Source of the DNA: a virus
Virus record (IMG/VR): IMGVR_UViG_3300025108_000047
Location: 1-60,318 of that record
Direction: 5' to 3' (one strand)
Length of the DNA stretch: 60,318 nucleotides
The notes beneath the pieces were generated by a model. That model was not told the origin of the DNA. It made no database searches and worked only from the letters and a program-made list of their open reading frames with translations. Position numbers and translations under genes: made by a program. This document shows, one piece after another, positions 533 to 9,363 of this stretch; position 1 is the first letter of the stretch; the number at the start of each line of letters is the position of its first letter.

Positions 533-808
533 ATGGCTAATATTAATGACCACCATAATCAATCATTTGCTAGAAAAGGCACAAAGTTTTTATCTGGAGC
601 AGAACTTTCCAGTGTAAATATAGGGACGTATGTCGCTGTACAGTTTATTACTGATTGTACTCCAGGCTACCTAACGACTCATTTTGAGCCAGGGGTAGAA
701 TACGGAACTATTAAATATCTTGCTGGAACAATAATATATATTGATGTAGCTTCTATTAGACTTAATAGTGGAGAGGTTGCAATATTATATGAAAGAATAC
801 CATGTTAG
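533..808 (+). CDS. Small protein of unknown function, probable virion or tail component
   Basis: A 91-residue protein starting MANINDHHNQSF. I do not recognise a family. It is rich in beta-prone residues (GTIIYIDVASIRL, VAVQFITD), has no signal peptide or membrane helix, and looks like a compact beta-sandwich. It is the first gene after the giant virion gene (24-nt gap). It overlaps the following LamG-like gene by 7 nt, so the two are probably translated together. Its position between virion and fibre genes suggests a small structural role, which is inference. Confidence 0.75.
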   Translation: MANINDHHNQSFARKGTKFLSGAELSSVNIGTYVAVQFITDCTPGYLTTHFEPGVEYGTIKYLAGTIIYIDVASIRLNSGEVAILYERIPC

Positions 809-1509
809 GATTAGGACTTAGTTTAGCTAAGCCATATAGAATATCTAAGTCATTTAACGTATTAGATATAGATTCTTTGGTTATATATAATGAGTATCAG
901 ACTTGGACTTACAGCTCTGGAAGCGTAGTAAATGCTTGGCCTAATCATTCAAGTTTATCAAGTAATTATAATTTGTCACAATCAAACAAAAGTTTTTCTC
1001 CAGTAGAAGAAAGTGGAAAACTTAACTTTAACAATCAATCTATTAATGGACAGCTAAATTATGCTACACAAATAGATGTAACTGACTTTACTTTAATTAT
1101 GTCTATTAATCTTAACGAAGCAGTAAACCTTACAAACGAAGGCCTTATCGGTAGGGGTTTAAATGATTTGGTAAAATTATATAGAGGTGCTGGAAATAAA
1201 AGAATAAACTTAAGGCTTGAGGGAAACAATTATGATGAAAACAATTTAAGCATTCCATACCCAACGGGAGACTTTATTTTGACTATAACCAGAGACACAA
1301 GCGGTAATGTTTTGTTTTACTTTGACACAACAGAGGTTGGAGACTTAACTTCAGACCCACAATATGATTTAAGAATAAGTCAAATAGGTTCTGGTCAATT
1401 AAGCAGCGTTAAATATGATGGATTTATTAATGAAGTCTATTTATTTAATGAAGTTATTTCTGATGAAGAAAGAGAAAATGTAATTAACTTTGCTTTAAAT
1501 AAATTATAA
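802..1509 (+). CDS. LamG/concanavalin-like lectin-fold protein, probable receptor-binding component
   Basis: A 235-residue protein. Residues from about 95 to the end read like a laminin-G/concanavalin A-like jelly roll. There is a strand pattern around FTLIMSINL, then FILTITRDTSGNVLFYFD, and the typical closing segment DGFINEVYLFNEVISDEE before a C-terminal helix. Such domains bind glycans in phage tail fibres and in surface proteins. It lies between a small structural gene and the main fibre gene and overlaps the first. Host glycan recognition is inferred; fold recognition is fairly good, ligand unknown. Confidence 0.72.
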   Translation: MLGLGLSLAKPYRISKSFNVLDIDSLVIYNEYQTWTYSSGSVVNAWPNHSSLSSNYNLSQSNKSFSPVEESGKLNFNNQSINGQLNYATQIDVTDFTLIMSINLNEAVNLTNEGLIGRGLNDLVKLYRGAGNKRINLRLEGNNYDENNLSIPYPTGDFILTITRDTSGNVLFYFDTTEVGDLTSDPQYDLRISQIGSGQLSSVKYDGFINEVYLFNEVISDEERENVINFALNKL

Positions 1510-2739
1510 ATGAAGTGGATAGGACAACATATATGGGACTTTGTTTCAAGATTTAGAAACGATGTATACTTTGAAAACTTACAAGGTAGTTCAGAAACTA
1601 CTGCACTTGTTGTTGACTCAGATGGTAAAGTTACTACCAATAGTATGAGTGGTGGTAGTGGTAATGGAGAAGCTAGCAAAGTAAGACTTCCAGTTAGATT
1701 TAAAGAAGCTGTTGTTAAAGGTGACCCAGTATATATATCAGGATATAACAGCGGTCAAGACAGAGCTGAGGTACAAAAAGCTGATTGTAATGATGCTAAT
1801 AAAATGCCATCATTTGGTTTGGCAGATGCTGATTATTCTAATAACGATAATGGTTTTGTAATATCTATAGGTAATTTAGAAGATGTAGATACTCAAGCCT
1901 ATTCTGTAGGAGACACTCTTTATGTAGCTTCTGGTGGTGGGCTTACAAATATCAAGCCAGCAACTGAATTAAATTTAATACAGAATGTTGGTGTAGTTAC
2001 AAGGTCTCAACAAAACAGTGGTATGATTGAGGTAGTTGCTACAGGTCGTAGTAATGATGTTCCTAACCTAGATGAAAATGCTATATTTCTTGGAGACTCT
2101 AACCATAAGTCTGTTCAGACTGACGCACCTATGATTGGACTTGTGACTGCTGCTGATTCTGCTGCTGCAAGAACTGTATTAAATGTAGACGTGTCTGGTA
2201 CTGACAACTCAACAAATGTAACGTTGGCTGGTACGCCTGATTATATTACAATATCAGGACAGGAGATAACTAGAAATCAAATAGACTTAACAGCAGACGT
2301 CACGGGAGTTTTGCCGTCTAATCAGGTTAAGCAAATAAGTATGAGTCATCATCACTTTTTTATGAACAGTGCAAGTACTACAGCTGACTTCTTTTTTCCA
2401 TATAATAACTTAAACGAAGCTAGCAGCACAAGCCAATACTATACAAGAACAATAGCTCCTTATGCTGGGAAGATTGTAAAAGTAATTATAAGACCTAGTG
2501 CAGCTATTGGAACAGCTTGCAAACTACAGTTCCATAAAATAACAGACACAACATTAAACTTTGGAACAGCAGCAGAAGAAGTTACAAATGTAAATTTAAA
2601 CACGGCACAGACATCAGTGTCTACGGCATTTAGCTCTGCAACATTTGCAGCAGGAGATGTAGTAAATGTTTCTTTAATTAAATCAGCATCAGGAACAGCT
2701 AACATCCAAGCAGTTATTGTTTGGGAATACACAATATAA
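1510..2739 (+). CDS. Tail fibre protein with a WIGQHIWDF N-terminal module
   Basis: A 409-residue protein. Residues 2-21 (core WIGQHIWDFVSRFRNDVYF) match an N-terminal segment I know from many marine phage fibre proteins, where it probably anchors the fibre to the particle. The middle is a series of beta-rich stretches with Gly, Ser and Asn (about residues 55-270). The C-terminal ~130 residues, beginning near SMSHHHFFMNS, form a second beta domain ending VIVWEYTI, probably the distal tip. The start directly abuts the LamG-like gene. Fibre function is inferred from composition, the N-terminal module and neighbours. Confidence 0.78.
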   Translation: MKWIGQHIWDFVSRFRNDVYFENLQGSSETTALVVDSDGKVTTNSMSGGSGNGEASKVRLPVRFKEAVVKGDPVYISGYNSGQDRAEVQKADCNDANKMPSFGLADADYSNNDNGFVISIGNLEDVDTQAYSVGDTLYVASGGGLTNIKPATELNLIQNVGVVTRSQQNSGMIEVVATGRSNDVPNLDENAIFLGDSNHKSVQTDAPMIGLVTAADSAAARTVLNVDVSGTDNSTNVTLAGTPDYITISGQEITRNQIDLTADVTGVLPSNQVKQISMSHHHFFMNSASTTADFFFPYNNLNEASSTSQYYTRTIAPYAGKIVKVIIRPSAAIGTACKLQFHKITDTTLNFGTAAEEVTNVNLNTAQTSVSTAFSSATFAAGDVVNVSLIKSASGTANIQAVIVWEYTI

Positions 2740-2740
2740 T

Positions 2741-3463
2741 ATGGCACTAGCAGACAGGAAATCACAAGATATATTTAATAAAAGAACTGGAGGGGATAGA
2801 GACTCTAAAAGTATAGACACGTCTAAAGAAACTGAAATAAAAAGTAAGTTTGATAATGGTGAGCATATACTAGACCAGGGTATGTTTGAAAACTTAGCTC
2901 CAGCCCTATACGCAGTACAACAAGTTGCAGAAGACATAGAGGAATTAAGAAGATTTGTTTCTTCTGAAATAACAAGCATAACAACTAGTCAGTCTAACGC
3001 CATAACAGCTAACACAGCTAAAAGAGACGCTCAACATATATTTATACCAGTTATTTGTAACTTTTATGGAGACATTAACACAGAGTCTTATGTTCCTTTT
3101 TCTGACGGAGAAACAGAAAGCACCTCAAGCTCAAACAGAAGAAATCAATTTATAGCTCCATTTGACGGCCAGTTTTACAAGGCTGTATTTAGAAGTAATC
3201 AAAGTCTGTTAGAAAGAGGTGCTGGAGTTACCCTTACTGTAAAGTCTAAAAGAGCTACAAATAGAAGTTCAAGAGTAGATGATTTAGAAACAGAAACAGT
3301 AACAACTACAGCAGGAGAAAACTTCATGGAAGTAACATTTTCTTCTAAGTCTTCATTTAGCAAGGGAGACAGGCTTTTAATGTCTATGGACTTGCCTGGA
3401 AATCCAAGAGGAAATAAAAACTGGTTTGTAACTGTTATATTTAAAATAGACCAAACTACATAA
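2741..3463 (+). CDS. Probable tail fibre or fibre-associated protein
   Basis: A 240-residue protein, with the start taken at ATG 2741 one base after the fibre stop codon; a TTG 24 nt upstream would overlap the fibre gene. Residues 1-75 are charged and helical. The rest (from about QHIFIPVICNFYGDINTESYVPF) is beta-rich and resembles the C-terminal tip domain of the preceding fibre in length and style (FDGQFYKAVFRS compared with YAGKIVKVIIRP). A second fibre tip or fibre cap is the likeliest role. The similarity was judged by eye only. Confidence 0.7.
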   Translation: MALADRKSQDIFNKRTGGDRDSKSIDTSKETEIKSKFDNGEHILDQGMFENLAPALYAVQQVAEDIEELRRFVSSEITSITTSQSNAITANTAKRDAQHIFIPVICNFYGDINTESYVPFSDGETESTSSSNRRNQFIAPFDGQFYKAVFRSNQSLLERGAGVTLTVKSKRATNRSSRVDDLETETVTTTAGENFMEVTFSSKSSFSKGDRLLMSMDLPGNPRGNKNWFVTVIFKIDQTT

Positions 3464-3484: not shown

Positions 3485-3754
3485 ATGTATAAGACATACG
3501 TTATAAAAAATCTTCAAACTACAGACACTACTTTAAGAGATGGTGAAGAGTTGCTTTCTGTTTACGTATCAAACACGTCTACAGCAGACCAAGCATTTAA
3601 TTTAAAAGTAGATGAAGTTTACGTTTACGAAGGTATTGTTATACCTCCTAGCGTAACTTTAGTTTTAGACAACCCAATTATTTTTGACACTAATAGAATT
3701 ACAGTTTCAGCAGGAGCAGCAGATAAACTTGACATAACATATACGGTGAAATAA
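3485..3754 (+). CDS. Small beta-rich protein, probable virion decoration or fibre accessory
   Basis: An 89-residue protein without a recognised family. It consists almost wholly of predicted beta strands (VYVYEGIVIPPSVTLVLDNPI, KLDITYTVK), as in small phage decoration or head-fibre proteins. It has its own -7 box 4 nt upstream of the ATG. Its stop overlaps the next start as TAATG, so it is transcriptionally separable but translationally coupled to the outer-membrane protein gene that follows. Confidence 0.65.
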   Translation: MYKTYVIKNLQTTDTTLRDGEELLSVYVSNTSTADQAFNLKVDEVYVYEGIVIPPSVTLVLDNPIIFDTNRITVSAGAADKLDITYTVK

Positions 3755-4791
3755 TGAAAACAAAAATTTATTTATTTTTAATTTTAGCGTTTTTCACATA
3801 TACATCAGACGCTCAATTTAAAAAACCATTTAAGTTTTCTACATTTTATATTGCAGCCAACGGCGGAACTTCTTTAGCTGACGAAAACATTTACTCAGTA
3901 AATAACAGCTTTCTTTCTACAGACACAATAACAATACCTTTTGACTACTCTTTAACTATGGGTATTCGTAAAATTAAAAGATTTGGCTACGAATCCGTTA
4001 GCAAGTTTAAAGACGGTACTGAGTCTGCATACGGAGACGCTGCTACTATTGGCTTATCTCCTTTTGAATATTTATTTGAAGTAGATTATAGAAGACAAGA
4101 GGGAATAGAATATTTAGACCAACATCATTTTCTTAGATACGTAAAGCCTTTGTGGATGACTAAAGTGTCATACATTAAAGAGGGTTTTGCAGACATTGAA
4201 TATTACGAGGCTACACAAAGATTTAGAATTAATGGCAAAAAGAAATTATCTTTTAATATAGGAGGAGTGCAAAGACTTGCAGAGCCTTATGGATATGACC
4301 CATTAGAAGAATGGTTAATAGCTTCAGGACAGCTACACTATACTTGTTTAGCGATTGAAGAAGGTTACAGCGTAGATGTATACGAATCTGAATATAGAGA
4401 CCCAAATGGTAATTTAGTAGCGCAGAACGCAACTATATGGAATGAGGTTGTTATACCTGAAATGCTGAATGATTACGTAGAAAAGAAAAAGAATGAGTTA
4501 GACAATCAATGGCAATACTCTTTGGTAGTAGGATTTGACTTTTATCATTATAAGAAAAACTTCTGGTTACACTCTTGGGGTAACTTAATGCCTTATCATT
4601 ATAATGGTGGAGGTGAATATTCATATCACAACTTTAATGACGGAGAACAATGGTATGACTACTCAGGAGGATTAATCTTTGGATACAACCTAAACAGAAA
4701 TGTTGGTTGCTTTATAGAAGGTAAGTACAACAAGTATTGGAACAGAGAATGGTACGACTTTAAATTTGGTATTAATTATAGAATATTTTAA
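3754..4791 (+). CDS. Secreted outer-membrane beta-barrel-like protein
   Basis: A 345-residue protein with a clear signal peptide (MKTKIYLFLILAFFTYTSDAQ, cleavage after about residue 20). The mature part is rich in aromatic residues alternating with polar ones (FDFYHYKKNFWLHSW, YSGGLIFGYNL) and ends FKFGINYRIF. A terminal aromatic residue after a beta strand is the usual outer-membrane barrel signature. It probably inserts in the host outer membrane. By analogy with Lom-type and Cor-type phage proteins it could alter the surface or block superinfection; that role is inference. It starts in a TAATG overlap with the previous gene. Confidence 0.65.
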   Translation: MKTKIYLFLILAFFTYTSDAQFKKPFKFSTFYIAANGGTSLADENIYSVNNSFLSTDTITIPFDYSLTMGIRKIKRFGYESVSKFKDGTESAYGDAATIGLSPFEYLFEVDYRRQEGIEYLDQHHFLRYVKPLWMTKVSYIKEGFADIEYYEATQRFRINGKKKLSFNIGGVQRLAEPYGYDPLEEWLIASGQLHYTCLAIEEGYSVDVYESEYRDPNGNLVAQNATIWNEVVIPEMLNDYVEKKKNELDNQWQYSLVVGFDFYHYKKNFWLHSWGNLMPYHYNGGGEYSYHNFNDGEQWYDYSGGLIFGYNLNRNVGCFIEGKYNKYWNREWYDFKFGINYRIF

Positions 4792-4792
4792 A

Positions 4793-5068
4793 ATGGCAAA
4801 AGAACTTAACGAAGAAACAGGGTTCAACATAAGTGTAAAAACATTAATAGGTATAGGCTTTGCAATGGCAACCTTAATAGGTATGTGGTTTACATTACAA
4901 GCAGACATAGCAGAAGCTAAAGAACTTCCTAAACCAGAAATTTCTAAGATGGAGTTTAATATGAAAGATGTTAATATACGTCAGTCTATTAAAAATACAG
5001 AGAAAAATGTGGAAAAGTTAGAAGAGCGTATGATTAGAATGGAAGACAAAATTGATGCACTAAGATAA
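4793..5068 (+). CDS. Single-TM protein with C-terminal coiled coil (possible inner-membrane spanin)
   Basis: A 91-residue protein starting MAKELNEETG. One transmembrane helix lies near residues 19-38 (LIGIGFAMATLIGMWFTLQA). It is followed by a charged coiled coil to the end (SIKNTEKNVEKLEERMIRMEDKIDAL). This N-in, periplasmic-coil topology is that of i-spanins, and the gene lies 3 kb upstream of the holin. It could also be a small virion or envelope scaffold protein. No matching lipoprotein (o-spanin) is obvious. The end overlaps the next start as TAATG. Confidence 0.6.
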   Translation: MAKELNEETGFNISVKTLIGIGFAMATLIGMWFTLQADIAEAKELPKPEISKMEFNMKDVNIRQSIKNTEKNVEKLEERMIRMEDKIDALR

Positions 5069-5421
5069 TGAAAAAGATAGCAGAATGGAAGATGTTTGGA
5101 ATGTACTTGTTAGTATTATTTTTATTGGTAGCCTCACATACTGCTTTCTCTCAGGTAAAAGTGATACACTTTAATGCTGATTTTAATTCAGCTAATGATG
5201 TTATTTGGTTTTCAAAATTAAAAGAATGTGATAGACAAACACTTTTGATAGAGCAAAACGATAATCAAGCTAAATACGAAATAGCTATTGTACCAACAAT
5301 AGTAGTGTTTGATGATGGTGAAGAAGTAAAAAGATTTCAAGCAGACATAAGCTTTAAAATGGCTGCTACAAGAAAAGAAGTACAAGAATATATTGATGAA
5401 TTAATAATAAGCAAATTCTAA
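5068..5421 (+). CDS. Exported thioredoxin-fold protein lacking the CxxC pair
   Basis: A 117-residue protein with a signal peptide (hydrophobic YLLVLFLLVASHTAFSQ, cleaved after about residue 28). The mature domain has the thioredoxin pattern: strand VKVIHFNADF, strand TLLIEQNDN, then IAIVPTIVVFDDGEEVKRF, where the VPT proline matches the conserved cis-proline before the edge strand. The CxxC active site is absent, so redox activity is unlikely. A periplasmic binding or chaperone role, possibly for its coupled neighbour, is inference. The neighbouring genes overlap at both ends by TAATG. Confidence 0.65.
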   Translation: MKKIAEWKMFGMYLLVLFLLVASHTAFSQVKVIHFNADFNSANDVIWFSKLKECDRQTLLIEQNDNQAKYEIAIVPTIVVFDDGEEVKRFQADISFKMAATRKEVQEYIDELIISKF

Positions 5422-7250
5422 TGAACAGATTTACTAAATTTTTATATGCGTTTATTATGGTTGTAGTGTTTACACTTTCAACTGCTTTTTCACAATGTCC
5501 TAACGGAACTTACTTAAATGTAGTTATTAATCCCGACCAATACCCACAAGAAACATCTTGGGTTATCACCAATGCTTACGGAGACACTATAGTCACAGGA
5601 GGGCCTTATACTGATATAATAGATTATTCACCTCAAGTAACACAGCTTTGTGTTCCTAATGGTGACTACTACTTTGACATATACGACACCTATGGAGATG
5701 GAATACAAGGAAGTTTATGGGGAGGACAAGATGGTTCATACTACTTAATAAGATGTAATGATACTATAGTTGAAATGGATTCAGCTAACTTTGGCACGTA
5801 TACATACCATGAATTTACAGTAGAAGACTGCCCTCCTCCGCCACCTATATATGGTTGTATGAATAACAACTTTGTAGAGTTTTTACCAACAGCAACAGTA
5901 GACACAGGGATGTGTTTTACTGATAAAGTTTTCGGCTGCACAGAAGAAGACGCTTTTAATTACGATAGTCTAGCTAACACAAATATATTGGTAGACAGCT
6001 GTTTACACACCTTAGAGCTTACAGACTTAGCTGGTAATGGCTGGGCTGGAGCTTTTCTACAGGTATTTCAAGGTGACAACTTTTTAGGTATATTTACTTT
6101 AGAAGAAGGCTTTGACACTACTTTTACTTTTGAATTAAGTATATCAGAGCCTGTAGAGATAAAATTTAACACTACACAACAATCACAATTTACATCAGTA
6201 CAATGTGGTTATAGCTTATATTCAGAAGAACACTTAACAATAAGCGAACCAGGAGGTTTTGCAAATCCTTTAATTCCTTTTGCAATAAATACAGGTATGC
6301 CTTATTGTGGCAATAGTTGTGTAGAAAAAACATTTGGCTGTACAGATGATACAGCTTTAAATTATAACGAGAGTGTTAATACAGATGACGAAAGTTGCTA
6401 CTACGTTGCTGGGTGTACTAATCCAATATACTTAGAATATAGCGAAGAAGCTGACTTTGATAACGGAAGCTGTGAAACTCTTGTTGTTCTAGGCTGTATG
6501 GATGAAGCAGCCTTGAATTATAACCCTGAAGCAAACACACAACTAGAAGGTTCATGTGTTGATGTAGTTTTAGGATGTATGAATGAATTGGCGTTTAATT
6601 ATAACCCAAATGCTAACGTAGATGACGAAAGCTGTATACCTTTGTTGTATGGCTGCATAGACCCTGCGGCATTTAACTATTGCGATACTTGTAATACAGA
6701 CAACGAAAGCTGTATAGAATATTATTATGGATGTACAGACAGCACAGCAATTAATTATGACGATAACGCAAACTCTGATAATGGGTCTTGTGTTTATCCT
6801 TTGTCTGGCTGCACAGATGCGACTGCTATTAATTATAATGTCGAAGCTAACATATCAGACAGTAGTTGCTATTACTCTGCTGGTTGTAGCGTTGGTGATG
6901 TATACTACATTCCTAATGCGTGTTTTAGCTGGGTTATCCAAGTAGACCCGTATTGTTGCAACTCAACATGGGACGATGGTTGTGATGGGCTTTACGAATA
7001 TTGCGTAGACGGATGGACAGGGCCAGTAAGCGTTGAGACTTTTGACAGACTTGGAATAAACCCTTACCCAAATCCAACTAAAAATACTATTAATTTTAAT
7101 AACTTTGTAGACGTTGAGGTATATGATACAAAAGGAATTTTGGTAAACAGACACAAAAACATTAATGTTTTAAACTTGCCAAAAGGTATGTATCACTTAT
7201 TAATAACATTTGATGAATTAATTTTCAACAAAACAATAGTTAAATTATAA
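5421..7250 (+). CDS. Cysteine-repeat surface protein with T9SS-type C-terminal sorting domain
   Basis: A 609-residue protein. Residues 1-24 are a signal peptide ending AFSQ. A beta domain follows (about 25-140), then nine copies of a ~22-residue GC(T/M)DxxAxNYNxxAN...DxSC module: two at about 144-195 and seven at about 305-483, separated by another beta domain. After a cysteine-rich stretch, the last ~65 residues (from INPYPNPTKNTINF, through VEVYDTKGILV, to LPKGMYHLLITF...KTIVKL) have the form of a type A sorting domain of the Bacteroidetes type IX secretion system. Such proteins are exported by Sec and then displayed at the cell surface. This is unusual cargo for a phage. It is the last of four TAATG-coupled envelope genes. 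Confidence 0.85.
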   Translation: MNRFTKFLYAFIMVVVFTLSTAFSQCPNGTYLNVVINPDQYPQETSWVITNAYGDTIVTGGPYTDIIDYSPQVTQLCVPNGDYYFDIYDTYGDGIQGSLWGGQDGSYYLIRCNDTIVEMDSANFGTYTYHEFTVEDCPPPPPIYGCMNNNFVEFLPTATVDTGMCFTDKVFGCTEEDAFNYDSLANTNILVDSCLHTLELTDLAGNGWAGAFLQVFQGDNFLGIFTLEEGFDTTFTFELSISEPVEIKFNTTQQSQFTSVQCGYSLYSEEHLTISEPGGFANPLIPFAINTGMPYCGNSCVEKTFGCTDDTALNYNESVNTDDESCYYVAGCTNPIYLEYSEEADFDNGSCETLVVLGCMDEAALNYNPEANTQLEGSCVDVVLGCMNELAFNYNPNANVDDESCIPLLYGCIDPAAFNYCDTCNTDNESCIEYYYGCTDSTAINYDDNANSDNGSCVYPLSGCTDATAINYNVEANISDSSCYYSAGCSVGDVYYIPNACFSWVIQVDPYCCNSTWDDGCDGLYEYCVDGWTGPVSVETFDRLGINPYPNPTKNTINFNNFVDVEVYDTKGILVNRHKNINVLNLPKGMYHLLITFDELIFNKTIVKL

Positions 7251-7555
7251 TGGCTGAAAAAAGAAAAAAGTCTAAAGCAATTAGAAAAACCACTAAAGGC
7301 AAAGGAGCTAATTATAGGTCTACAAAGTCTGGAGCTGGTATGACTCGTAAAGGAGTTAAAGCGTATAGAAAAGCAAACCCTGGTAGTAAATTAAAAACTG
7401 CCGTAACGGGAAAAGTTAAAGCTGGGAGTAAGTCTGCAAAAAGAAGAAAGTCTTATTGCGCAAGAAGTTTAGGACAACTAAAAAAGAGTAGTGCTAAGAC
7501 TAGGAATAATCCTAAATCAAGAATAAGAGCCGCTCGTAGGCGGTGGAAATGTTAA
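7250..7555 (+). CDS. Very basic 101-residue protein (GAGxTRKGVxAYRxxNPGSKLKTAV family)
   Basis: About a third of the residues are Lys or Arg. The core, near residues 23-70, has GAGMTRKGVKAYRKANPGSK, LKTAVTGKVKAGSKSAKRRKSYCAR and then an SRIRAARRRWKC end. I know this layout from marine phages and algal viruses as a domain of unknown function. Nucleic-acid binding is the simplest guess from charge. It starts within the stop of the T9SS cargo gene (TAATG), and begins a run of small basic proteins next to the holin. Confidence 0.75.
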   Translation: MAEKRKKSKAIRKTTKGKGANYRSTKSGAGMTRKGVKAYRKANPGSKLKTAVTGKVKAGSKSAKRRKSYCARSLGQLKKSSAKTRNNPKSRIRAARRRWKC

Positions 7556-8038: not shown

Positions 8039-8449
8039 ATGCTAAATAATATATTAGGAGGAATACTTGGTAAGGTAGTAGACAACGCTGAGGGTATACT
8101 CGACAAAGTAATTACTACTGACAAAGAAAGAGACGAAGCTAAACTACAGCTACGTAAAGTTTTGTTAGACGCAGAGAAGGAAGCTTTTAACAAAGAGGTG
8201 GAAGACAGAAAGGACGCTAGAAGCTTGTACAAAGATGATGCGATTATACAGAAAGTATTAGCAACATTGTTTACCGTAGCTTACTTTGGCATAAGCTTTG
8301 TTATGTTTCAGCACTTTGTTAATGGCAGCATTGATATGGGAGAGTTTGAGATAAGCTTTATATCTACTATATTTGGAGCTATGTCTGCAAAGGTTAATAC
8401 AATAATAGACTTCTTCTTTGGAGGAAGTTCTAATAAAGATAAAAAGTAA
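8039..8449 (+). CDS. Probable holin (GTA 3-TM holin type)
   Basis: A 136-residue protein. Residues 1-75 form an amphipathic, charged helical region (DKVITTDKERDEAKLQLRKV). Hydrophobic segments lie at about 77-98 (VLATLFTVAYFGISFVMFQHF) and 105-127 (ISFISTIFGAMSAKVNTIIDFFF). It ends FGGSSNKDKK. This layout, with the C-terminal FFxGSS...K, matches the three-TM holin family described from gene-transfer agents. It would form the inner-membrane lesion at lysis. It sits 440 nt upstream of a candidate cell-wall enzyme. Confidence 0.75.
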   Translation: MLNNILGGILGKVVDNAEGILDKVITTDKERDEAKLQLRKVLLDAEKEAFNKEVEDRKDARSLYKDDAIIQKVLATLFTVAYFGISFVMFQHFVNGSIDMGEFEISFISTIFGAMSAKVNTIIDFFFGGSSNKDKK

Positions 8450-8645: not shown

Positions 8646-8887
8646 TGGCGCTAACTAAAAGACAAAAAAGTTTAAAGAAATGGACTAAACAAAAGTGGAG
8701 AACTGCTTCTGGTAAAAAGTCTAGTAAAACTGGTGAAGTCTATGCTCCATCAAAAACTATTGCACAGCTTAAAAAAACAAAAGCTGGTAAAAAAAAGTTA
8801 GCAGCAGCTAATGCTAAAAAAAGAGCTGCAACAAAAAAAGGTAAGCAGCACGCTAAACACGGATTGCATAAAGGCAAAAAAAGATAA
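8645..8887 (+). CDS. Small basic protein with WTKQKWRTASGKKSS motif
   Basis: An 80-residue, Lys-rich protein. The segment from residue 12 (KWTKQKWRTASGKKSS, then KTGEVYAPSKTIAQLK) matches a conserved motif I know from cyanophages and other aquatic viruses. The rest (KKRAATKKGKQHAKHG) is a basic tail. Function unknown; nucleic-acid or virion DNA association is a guess based on charge. It sits in TAATG overlaps with genes on both sides. Confidence 0.72.
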   Translation: MALTKRQKSLKKWTKQKWRTASGKKSSKTGEVYAPSKTIAQLKKTKAGKKKLAAANAKKRAATKKGKQHAKHGLHKGKKR

Positions 8888-9363
8888 TGAATTTACAAGT
8901 ATTAAGATTTAGTAGCGGTGAAGACTCAACGTCTGGATTATTGTTTGAAACAAACTTAGACATGAAGTCTTTTTTATGCTACACGTTAGAAGACGAAGCT
9001 AGAGACATAAAAATAAAAGGTGAAACTAGAGTCCCTGCTGGCACGTATAAAATAGAATTAAGAACCGAAGGAGGATTTCATGGAAGATACGCTAAAAAAT
9101 ATTCTGGTATGCACATTGGTATGTTGCATATCGTTGACGTTCCTGGGTTTGAGTATATTCTTATTCATACTGGAAACACTGATGAACATACTGCTGGCTG
9201 TCTTATCGTTGGAGATAGTCAAGAAAACAATAACATTCTTAAAGATGGTTTTATTGGAAAGAGTGTTAATGCCTATAAAAGAATCTATCCGAAAATAGCA
9301 AACGCTATTAAGTCTGGAGAAGATGTTACTATAACCTATATAGATTACGATATAAAACTATAA
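8887..9363 (+). CDS. DUF5675-family protein, candidate cell-wall lysis enzyme
   Basis: A 158-residue protein. Conserved features are TLEDEAR (about 33-39), RVPAGTYKIELR (about 48-59), MLHIVDVPGFEYILIHTGN (79-97) and TAGCLIVG (102-109). His94, Asn97 and Cys105 are the candidate active-site residues, reminiscent of the H...GC layout of L,D-transpeptidase-like enzymes. Members of DUF5675 are common in Bacteroidetes phages near holins. The position four genes after the T9SS cargo and just after the holin block supports a role in lysis, but no biochemistry can be claimed from sequence. Confidence 0.7.
   Translation: MNLQVLRFSSGEDSTSGLLFETNLDMKSFLCYTLEDEARDIKIKGETRVPAGTYKIELRTEGGFHGRYAKKYSGMHIGMLHIVDVPGFEYILIHTGNTDEHTAGCLIVGDSQENNNILKDGFIGKSVNAYKRIYPKIANAIKSGEDVTITYIDYDIKL

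Follow-up and report, generated by a model that had tools for sequence, protein, structure and literature searches.

A phage gene for a putative type IX secretion cargo belongs to a four-gene envelope cassette

The IMG/VR virus record IMGVR_UViG_3300025108_000047, whose whole stretch of 60,318 nucleotides (nt) was analysed and is here called the window, encodes at 5421..7250 (+ strand, ATG start) a 609-residue protein with a signal peptide and a C-terminal sorting domain of the type IX secretion system (T9SS), hereafter the cargo. Its gene is the fourth member of an envelope cassette, in which it follows genes for an outer-membrane beta-barrel (OMP), a protein with an N-terminal membrane helix (TM), and a thioredoxin-like protein (TRX). 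The record itself is a phage genome, as an earlier reading of the DNA without database searches (the sequence-only reading) had assumed: 143-nt direct repeats (2 mismatches) lie at both ends, and a terminase, a portal protein, and a major head protein are encoded. These features, together with the presence of the cassette in many viral contigs, ruled out host contamination. Most of the 203 phage records with a related terminase either take their names from Flavobacterium, Bacteroides, or Cellulophaga or are uncultured, and the 20 terminase matches listed are gut phages at ~28-29% identity; judging from these relatives, the host of this marine phage probably belongs to the Bacteroidota.

The cargo starts with a signal peptide (residues 1-24, 5421..5492; all features given here lie on the + strand), a hydrophobic N-terminus with a cleavage-like ...TAFS/Q junction placed before Q25 by inspection. 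A simple hydropathy rule calls a signal peptide here and in 95/96 distinct complete cargos, the start codons of the relatives having been chosen with regard to hydropathy beforehand; with automatic starts, 52/56 pass. The same rule calls none of 37 hand-listed other window genes, a list that did not contain the TM and holin-like genes. Two beta-sandwiches follow, one C2/PLAT-like (residues ~27-137, 5499..5831; Z 5.4-6.4 by VIA) and one CBM60/PLAT-like (residues ~192-295, 5994..6305; Z 7.2 by VIA to vCBM60 2xfd and 6.8 to a lipoxygenase PLAT domain). Since such scores can be chance, carbohydrate binding by the cargo is taken only as a hint.

Nine two-cysteine GC...C units, recognised by invariant G/C columns, start at residues 145 and 172 (repeats 1 and 2, 5853..6002) and at residues 306, 331, 358, 385, 411, 437, and 463 (repeats 3 to 9, 6336..6869). 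Both the signal peptide and the number of repeats given in the sequence-only reading thus stand, with the refinement that seven repeats keep the GCxDxxAxNY spacing and two are variants. A helical cysteine module of the form CC..WD..C..Y..C (6885..7010) has invariant C501, C512, C513, C521, and C528 and appears as helices in the AlphaFold2 cargo model, where its predicted local distance difference test (pLDDT) values are 50-64; the model as a whole, built with 53 sequences, has a pLDDT of 78.5. Pfam finds no enzyme domain in the window's cargo. Among its relatives, 4/53 members of the cargo alignment A1 (from which duplicates, near-duplicates, and fragments were removed by hand) carry a MAM domain, and larger cargos of 1,053-1,325 residues occur in L053, L055, L061, and L128.

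The protein ends in a T9SS type A sorting domain (residues 549-607, 7065..7241). Scored against curated profiles, as the sequence-only reading had proposed for the sorting domain it described, the cargo exceeds both cut-offs: PF18962 gives 30.7 bits (cut-off 27; E 3.8e-7) and TIGR04183 gives 28.7 bits (cut-off 23; E 9.9e-7), with the profiles aligning at residues 549-608 in a tail ~70 residues long. The fold agrees. When the AlphaFold2 tail (residues 544-609) was compared by VIA, the two best matches among the compared chains were RgpB T9SS tails (Z 8.4 with 80 aligned residues and a root-mean-square deviation (rmsd) of 3.5; Z 8.2 with 64 aligned and an rmsd of 2.2), followed by FspA (Z 7.7) and NucA (Z 7.5), with DUF3244 proteins interspersed at 7.8 and 7.2 and many unrelated immunoglobulin-like domains next at Z 5-7. 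NucA also ranks second in a Foldseek search with the cargo model (E 3.3e-3), and the family profile matches the tails of NucA (2.8e-5) and FspA (7.3e-4) by sequence. With two curated models and the fold in agreement, and the tail recurring in relatives, a chance match was ruled out.

Across the cargos collected from the samplings described below, TIGR04183 is matched at E 0.01 by 107/131 (39/53, 26/36, and 42/42 in the three sets), a total in which a single record appears twice, as L137 and L177, because both samplings include it. The 24 cargos that TIGR04183 does not match probably comprise 19 short-tailed ones (alignments A1 and A4) and five others below the threshold. The local type A tail model used for the second set included L137, and NCBIfam was therefore run on that set as well, covering 42 of the 56 distinct complete cargos, with 14 left out by hand (near-duplicates and the short-tailed L245); the L137 tail lies slightly under the TIGR04183 cut-off (its twin L177 scores 22.1 against 23) and has no PF18962 match. 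PF18962 occurs once each in 33/49 OMP-bearing records, above its cut-off in 29, and is unmatched in the other 16, which include short-tailed cargos and contigs that end within the cargo. No type B tail model is among the families matched by the cargo tails, which are of type A or of a short type. As a host clue the window tail was uninformative: 1/299 Flavobacteriales genomes matched at 1e-7.

The first cassette gene, OMP (3754..4791), encodes a 345-residue protein with a signal peptide, called by the hydropathy rule in 52/52 aligned members. Its AlphaFold2 model (pLDDT 72.5, predicted template modelling score (pTM) 0.63) has 14 long strands, and its PDB matches are outer-membrane barrels, namely NanC by Foldseek and OmpG (Z 11.9), CymA (11.4), and PorV (8gl6_F, 9.6) by VIA, with no barrel singled out. 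PorV does not rank above the other barrels, unrelated ones scoring higher. No Pfam, NCBIfam, or PHROG family matches OMP at E 1. Lipobox-like starts (e.g. SCAAPKKCCSQ) are seen on the OMP of L008, L010, L023, L040, and L062 and on the cargo of L113 and L142, as if signal peptides had been exchanged too.

TM (4793..5068, 91 residues) is predicted from its sequence to consist of an N-terminal membrane helix and a coiled coil of ~50 residues. Its relatives comprise 50 distinct listed sequences, the one in L002 being identical to that of the window, and its PHROG matches are families of unknown function (best 9.6e-5). TRX (5068..5421, 117 residues) has a signal peptide by the same rule (40/40). 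Like thioredoxin, it shows a profile match (2vim_A, 2.1e-7) and a conserved proline; unlike thioredoxin, it has no active-site CxxC, which is absent at that position in 40/40 aligned members, and it falls below the Pfam and NCBIfam cut-offs. N36, N40, N43, and P76 are invariant. A substitution of CxxC by NxxN, suggested by N40 and N43, was dropped, since HMMER places a gap there. The sequence-only reading had described the cargo gene as part of a TAATG-coupled set with an outer-membrane-like and a periplasmic thioredoxin-like protein. That description holds for the barrel, for the signal peptide-bearing thioredoxin-like protein, and for 4/5 junctions (TAATG at 3752, 5066, 5419, and 7248), but the OMP/TM junction reads TAA-A-ATG, TM was missed as a fourth member, and TRX lacks the active-site cysteines.

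Relatives of the cargo are encoded by 64 viral contigs, and their neighbours reveal the three accompanying genes. To avoid a bias towards the cargo, the OMP alignment was also used as a query against viral contigs (best 80 of 572 relatives), as was, in a second sampling, a divergent OMP (best 80 of 429 relatives). At loci of the first sampling that have over 5 kb of flank on either side, the cargo is present in 38/38 and all four genes in 37/38; in the remaining one, L121, the fetched stretch holds only OMP and a cargo cut at its end, and TM and TRX may lie beyond. The gene order is OMP-TM-TRX-cargo in 33, cargo-OMP-TM-TRX in 3, and TM-TRX-cargo-OMP in 1, and the cassette genes found share one strand in 80/80 loci of this sampling. 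All four genes occur in 44/44 loci of the second sampling, in the order cargo-OMP-TM-TRX in 39/44. Pooled, loci with enough flank contain the cargo in 82/82 cases and all four genes in 81/82, with one record counted twice. Among 80 long loci (both samplings plus two genome contigs), the cargo is found in 80, TRX in 79, and TM in 73, while OMP is by construction in all 80; of the other neighbour families, the most frequent is found in 48/80 and the following one in 26/80.

By sequence comparison, the cassette moves as a unit between deeply diverged phages. Terminases of 33 cassette records and the window were compared with the OMPs of the same records, and the identities correlate with r 0.22 over 561 pairs, a set that counts related sequences repeatedly. 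In the 389 pairs with terminases below 35% identity, the OMPs are 52-95% identical (median 64). The low correlation ruled out a lineage-specific marker. Between the window and G014 (L085), the terminases are 28%, the OMPs 89%, and the TRX proteins 97% identical; their DNA is 86.7% identical over 3753-6680, beginning at the OMP start codon, and a second block (80% over 6693-7076) stops about where the sorting tail begins. Similarly, in L069, L071, and L072, whose terminase identity to the window is low, the left end of the alignment lies at most 64 nt from the OMP start. That the second sampling represents unrelated phage orders was considered and dropped, as PHROG gave the same distant terminase and portal families; phrog_6681 is found in 42/49 records, the other 7, perhaps fragments, being without a match. 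Since the records have these families in common, the claim of exchange is limited to diverged members of one broad group.

Within the cassette, identity to other members was correlated with OMP identity in 68 of 86 loci, those with type A tails. The correlation is highest for the cargo body (r 0.80), followed by TRX (0.67), the tail (0.60), and TM (0.22); in 0/999 shuffles were correlations as high as those of body, tail, or TRX obtained.

The tail, in turn, is by sequence comparison swapped among cargos and yet kept. Among 96 distinct complete cargos, 73 end in a near-terminal [YF]PNP-type motif, three in type A variants, and 20 in the short tail; judged by motif and inspection, none of the 96 is tail-less. 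In a comparison of 91 of the 96 (five without the CC..WD motif were dropped), tail identity is below 40% in 191 of the 433 pairs whose bodies share at least 70% identity, related sequences again being counted repeatedly. L059 and L064 have bodies 88% and tails 24% identical and represent a switch between the two tail types. Rapid divergence could explain some of the type A pairs, but not such type switches. Against two close relatives, the ratio of non-synonymous to synonymous changes (dN/dS) in the tail is 0.17 and 0.24 (17 and 21 changes), and in the body 0.13 and 0.15.

The short tail (~38 residues, TDLLGR...FYIYDDGTVEKK, alignment A5; consensus KKLIxITDLLGRPTKxxKNKLLFYIYxDGTVERKLIK) is found on cargos such as those of L057, L064, and L120 and on various secreted-looking proteins of marine Flavobacteriales. 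It was matched in 7/10 genomes tested, with 19 matches in G052, some of them in frames shorter than 40 residues, and 15 in G051, both marine Flavobacteriales. It sits there on different proteins with signal peptide-like starts, among which are an esterase-like and a leucine-rich-repeat-like one; no NCBIfam model covers the short tail in five of these proteins or in L057. SprA is present in 11/11 cellular genomes examined, including three without the short tail, and type A tails occur in all 11, at 15 to 130 each; none of these genomes is known as that of the host. In a sample of the phylum, the short tail was found in 2/198 genomes, one of them G052 itself. The short tail is therefore best regarded as a candidate lineage-specific sorting signal, presumably used by the T9SS.

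Cellular relatives of the cargo body occur in marine Flavobacteriales (L149-L161) as long frames, most of at least 1,300 residues, and the other three cassette genes are not nearby. Three contigs from metagenome-assembled genomes (L146-L148) carry all four cassette genes, probably because phage contigs were binned with cells. Of ten cellular genomes, G051 alone has an OMP match, which coincides with the whole-cassette contig L147.

In the window, the cargo gene lies on the structural-gene strand between fibre-like genes, identified by inspection at 802-3463, and, outside the cassette, a holin-like gene (8039..8449; weak phrog_3427 holin match, 6.2e-4) and a DUF5675 gene (8887..9363; PF18925, 4.3e-27). 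TAATG-coupled to the cargo is a gene for a small basic DUF6321 protein (7250-7555), several of whose PHROG matches hit the C-terminus of longer profiles. If the record is read as a circle, a frame of ~3,887 residues, running from 49020 to ~60318 and then over 1-508, crosses the end repeat; its first 827-residue piece has no PHROG match at 0.001. Predicted promoters and terminators show no excess over shuffles.

Overall, we consider it the best explanation, at a confidence a little short of even, that the T9SS cargo builds a surface layer on the infected cell that masks or remodels receptors. The phage would make the cargo during infection, and the host T9SS would carry it to the cell surface; export by this system is highly probable, judging from the cargo sequence. 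The host shuttle PorV recognises type A tails (PMC12618676), so that a signal peptide and a tail should suffice for export of the phage cargo. Each envelope layer would receive one product, TM in the inner membrane, TRX in the periplasm, OMP in the outer membrane, and the cargo on the surface, and we lean slightly towards their assembly into one structure. Because the tail is swapped and OMP goes with the body, we propose that export by the host is followed by docking of the cargo on the phage barrel. The tail would then serve export only and be exchanged to suit the host lineage, and the docked cargo would be tied to the inner membrane via TRX and TM.

The resulting carbohydrate-binding-like and cysteine-repeat layer would mask or remodel surface receptors, and neither superinfecting phages nor progeny of the phage itself would then adsorb to the infected cell or its debris. 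T9SS and gliding genes are important for phage infection of Flavobacterium, as gld and spr mutants of Flavobacterium columnare resist phage V156 (PMC9233685); the layer might hide such structures late in infection, sparing progeny wasteful adsorption. Such a surface layer would most likely act against re-adsorption or superinfection, although masking as its purpose is suggested only tentatively, and the late, lysis-associated gene position and the swap patterns fit a surface role without choosing between superinfection, attachment, and aggregation. The broader proposal, of a mobile envelope-spanning structure with a host-matched tail and a barrel-held cargo linked via TRX and TM, which would represent a new superinfection-exclusion or release class widespread in marine Bacteroidota phages, is similarly speculative.

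Several observations weigh against this explanation. Foldseek with the cargo model gave no match at E 0.001 or better, and because the pTM of that model is 0.42, the domain arrangement of the cargo cannot be read from it. A tblastn search of 50,697 phage records matched neither OMP nor TRX, no cultured cassette phage was found, and phi38:1, phi14:2, elemoA, and ctfjg026 have neither PF18962 nor OMP. Identities of TM correlate with those of the other three products at r 0.17-0.30, which argues against a tightly co-evolving four-part complex and speaks against a tight fit of the TM link; the tail tracks OMP as well and is hence not independent. Furthermore, export does not require a barrel of the phage's own, given that the host shuttle PorV handles type A tails (PMC12618676).

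The proximity of the holin-like or DUF5675 gene, seen in 31/80 long loci (27/80 and 23/80, respectively), would also fit a role in lysis, some of these genes adjoining the cassette or lying inside its span and a phrog_3427 holin standing directly upstream of the cargo in L189. The cassette might accordingly be an envelope lysis or release module, in which TM acts like an inner spanin with OMP as its partner and TRX and the cargo break or shed the outer membrane. We regard this as unlikely, though it is the strongest of the alternatives: it accommodates the one product per envelope layer and the spanin-like topology read from the TM sequence, but neither family is seen in the other 49/80 loci and the TM coiled coil is short at ~50 residues. 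To our knowledge, a secreted carbohydrate-binding-like protein is not part of any spanin system.

Somewhat less probable still is a shuttle with an anchor, in which OMP would be a counterpart of PorP/SprF, TRX and TM would replace a PorE-like anchor, and a wall-linked adhesin would alter attachment or aggregate cells. OMP does track the cargo body, and operons of Flavobacterium johnsoniae show a similar division of labour (PMC12618676). However, the PorP/SprF profile TIGR03519 matches 0/15 cassette records at E 1, and the tails are of type A, which use PorV, or of the short type; since similar bodies carry exchanged tails, OMP is unlikely to recognise the tail.

We give low credence to the cargo being a virion component, a tail fibre or decoration whose tail fold was borrowed for structure. 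Its position downstream of the fibre-like genes would suit this, and the GC repeats of a protein of cyanophage S-CAM3 annotated as virion structural count both for it and against the surface-layer explanation; against it stand the signal peptides, found almost throughout the cargos and in none of the other window genes listed, the lack of any PHROG match for the cargo, the constant link with three membrane or signal peptide-bearing proteins, and the tails, which remain sorting types despite swapping. Equally improbable is a host-fitness moron that benefits infected or lysogenic cells, for instance as an adhesin, with no part in exclusion or lysis. In its favour, Cryophage cargo varies between variants, with competition or superinfection roles suggested by its authors (PMC7468147), and marine Flavobacteriales have distant relatives of the cargo body. 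Against it, the cargo is not sporadic, being found at all sampled cassette loci that have sufficient flank, and OMP is unmatched in 9/10 cellular genomes, the tenth match being on the whole-cassette contig.

If the surface-layer explanation is true, many marine phages would use the secretion system of their host, beyond its synthesis machinery, to remodel the exterior of the infected cell, and would do so with a conserved kit passed between phages with barely related core genes. Control of adsorption, exclusion, and outer-membrane release by Bacteroidota phages could then be tested directly in a T9SS model strain. The exchanged tails would amount to a natural library of sorting signals, and the short one, on 20/96 cargos, points to a sorting signal missed by the NCBIfam models tried.

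The sequence-only reading had held that phages are not normally expected to encode T9SS cargo, and here it must be revised, since such cargo is already in print for the Cryophage (Bellas et al, 2020; PMC7468147) and for gut phages (de Jonge et al, 2019; PMC6949934). In the open-licence papers searched, as far as their consulted sections extend, we found neither the four-gene cassette nor its exchange or the swapping of tails, and the consulted parts of PMC9233685, PMC12618676, PMC10013915, PMC11928666, and PMC13269007 mention no phage-encoded cargo. PF18962 was found in 2/8 named phage records searched, both picked for earlier tail-like hits. These two, L288 (MT836089, a gut phage fragment) and L289 (LR756502, a 642-kb phage), have sorting domains above the Pfam cut-off but no cassette OMP. 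Cyanophage records with GC repeats (MH319765 and NC_031906) were also noted; the proteins of S-CAM3 and Marine virus AG-345-P14 have similar repeats, 43-55% identical over 58-65 residues, but neither record has a PF18962 match.

The closest cellular parallel comes from five operons of F. johnsoniae, in which a T9SS cargo is encoded together with its cognate barrel shuttle and a homologue of PorE (PMC12618676). Like the phage cassette, they combine a surface cargo, an outer-membrane barrel, and an anchoring protein; they differ in being chromosomal, in their type B tails, and in their PorP/SprF barrel, the family not matched in the phage records. Among phages, gut phage cluster 2 encodes T9SS-tailed and BACON proteins upstream of the head section (PMC6949934), and differs in these BACON domains; the consulted text describes no such cassette and proposes no role. 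The Cryophage resembles the window in having genes with type A T9SS sorting domains, which vary between variants and for which a hijack of the T9SS was proposed (PMC7468147). These are, as described there, three separate variable genes (endoglucanase, GH39, and PA14) in one phage, whereas phages of the window's type have one tail match per genome and a constant link to three envelope genes across divergent phages.

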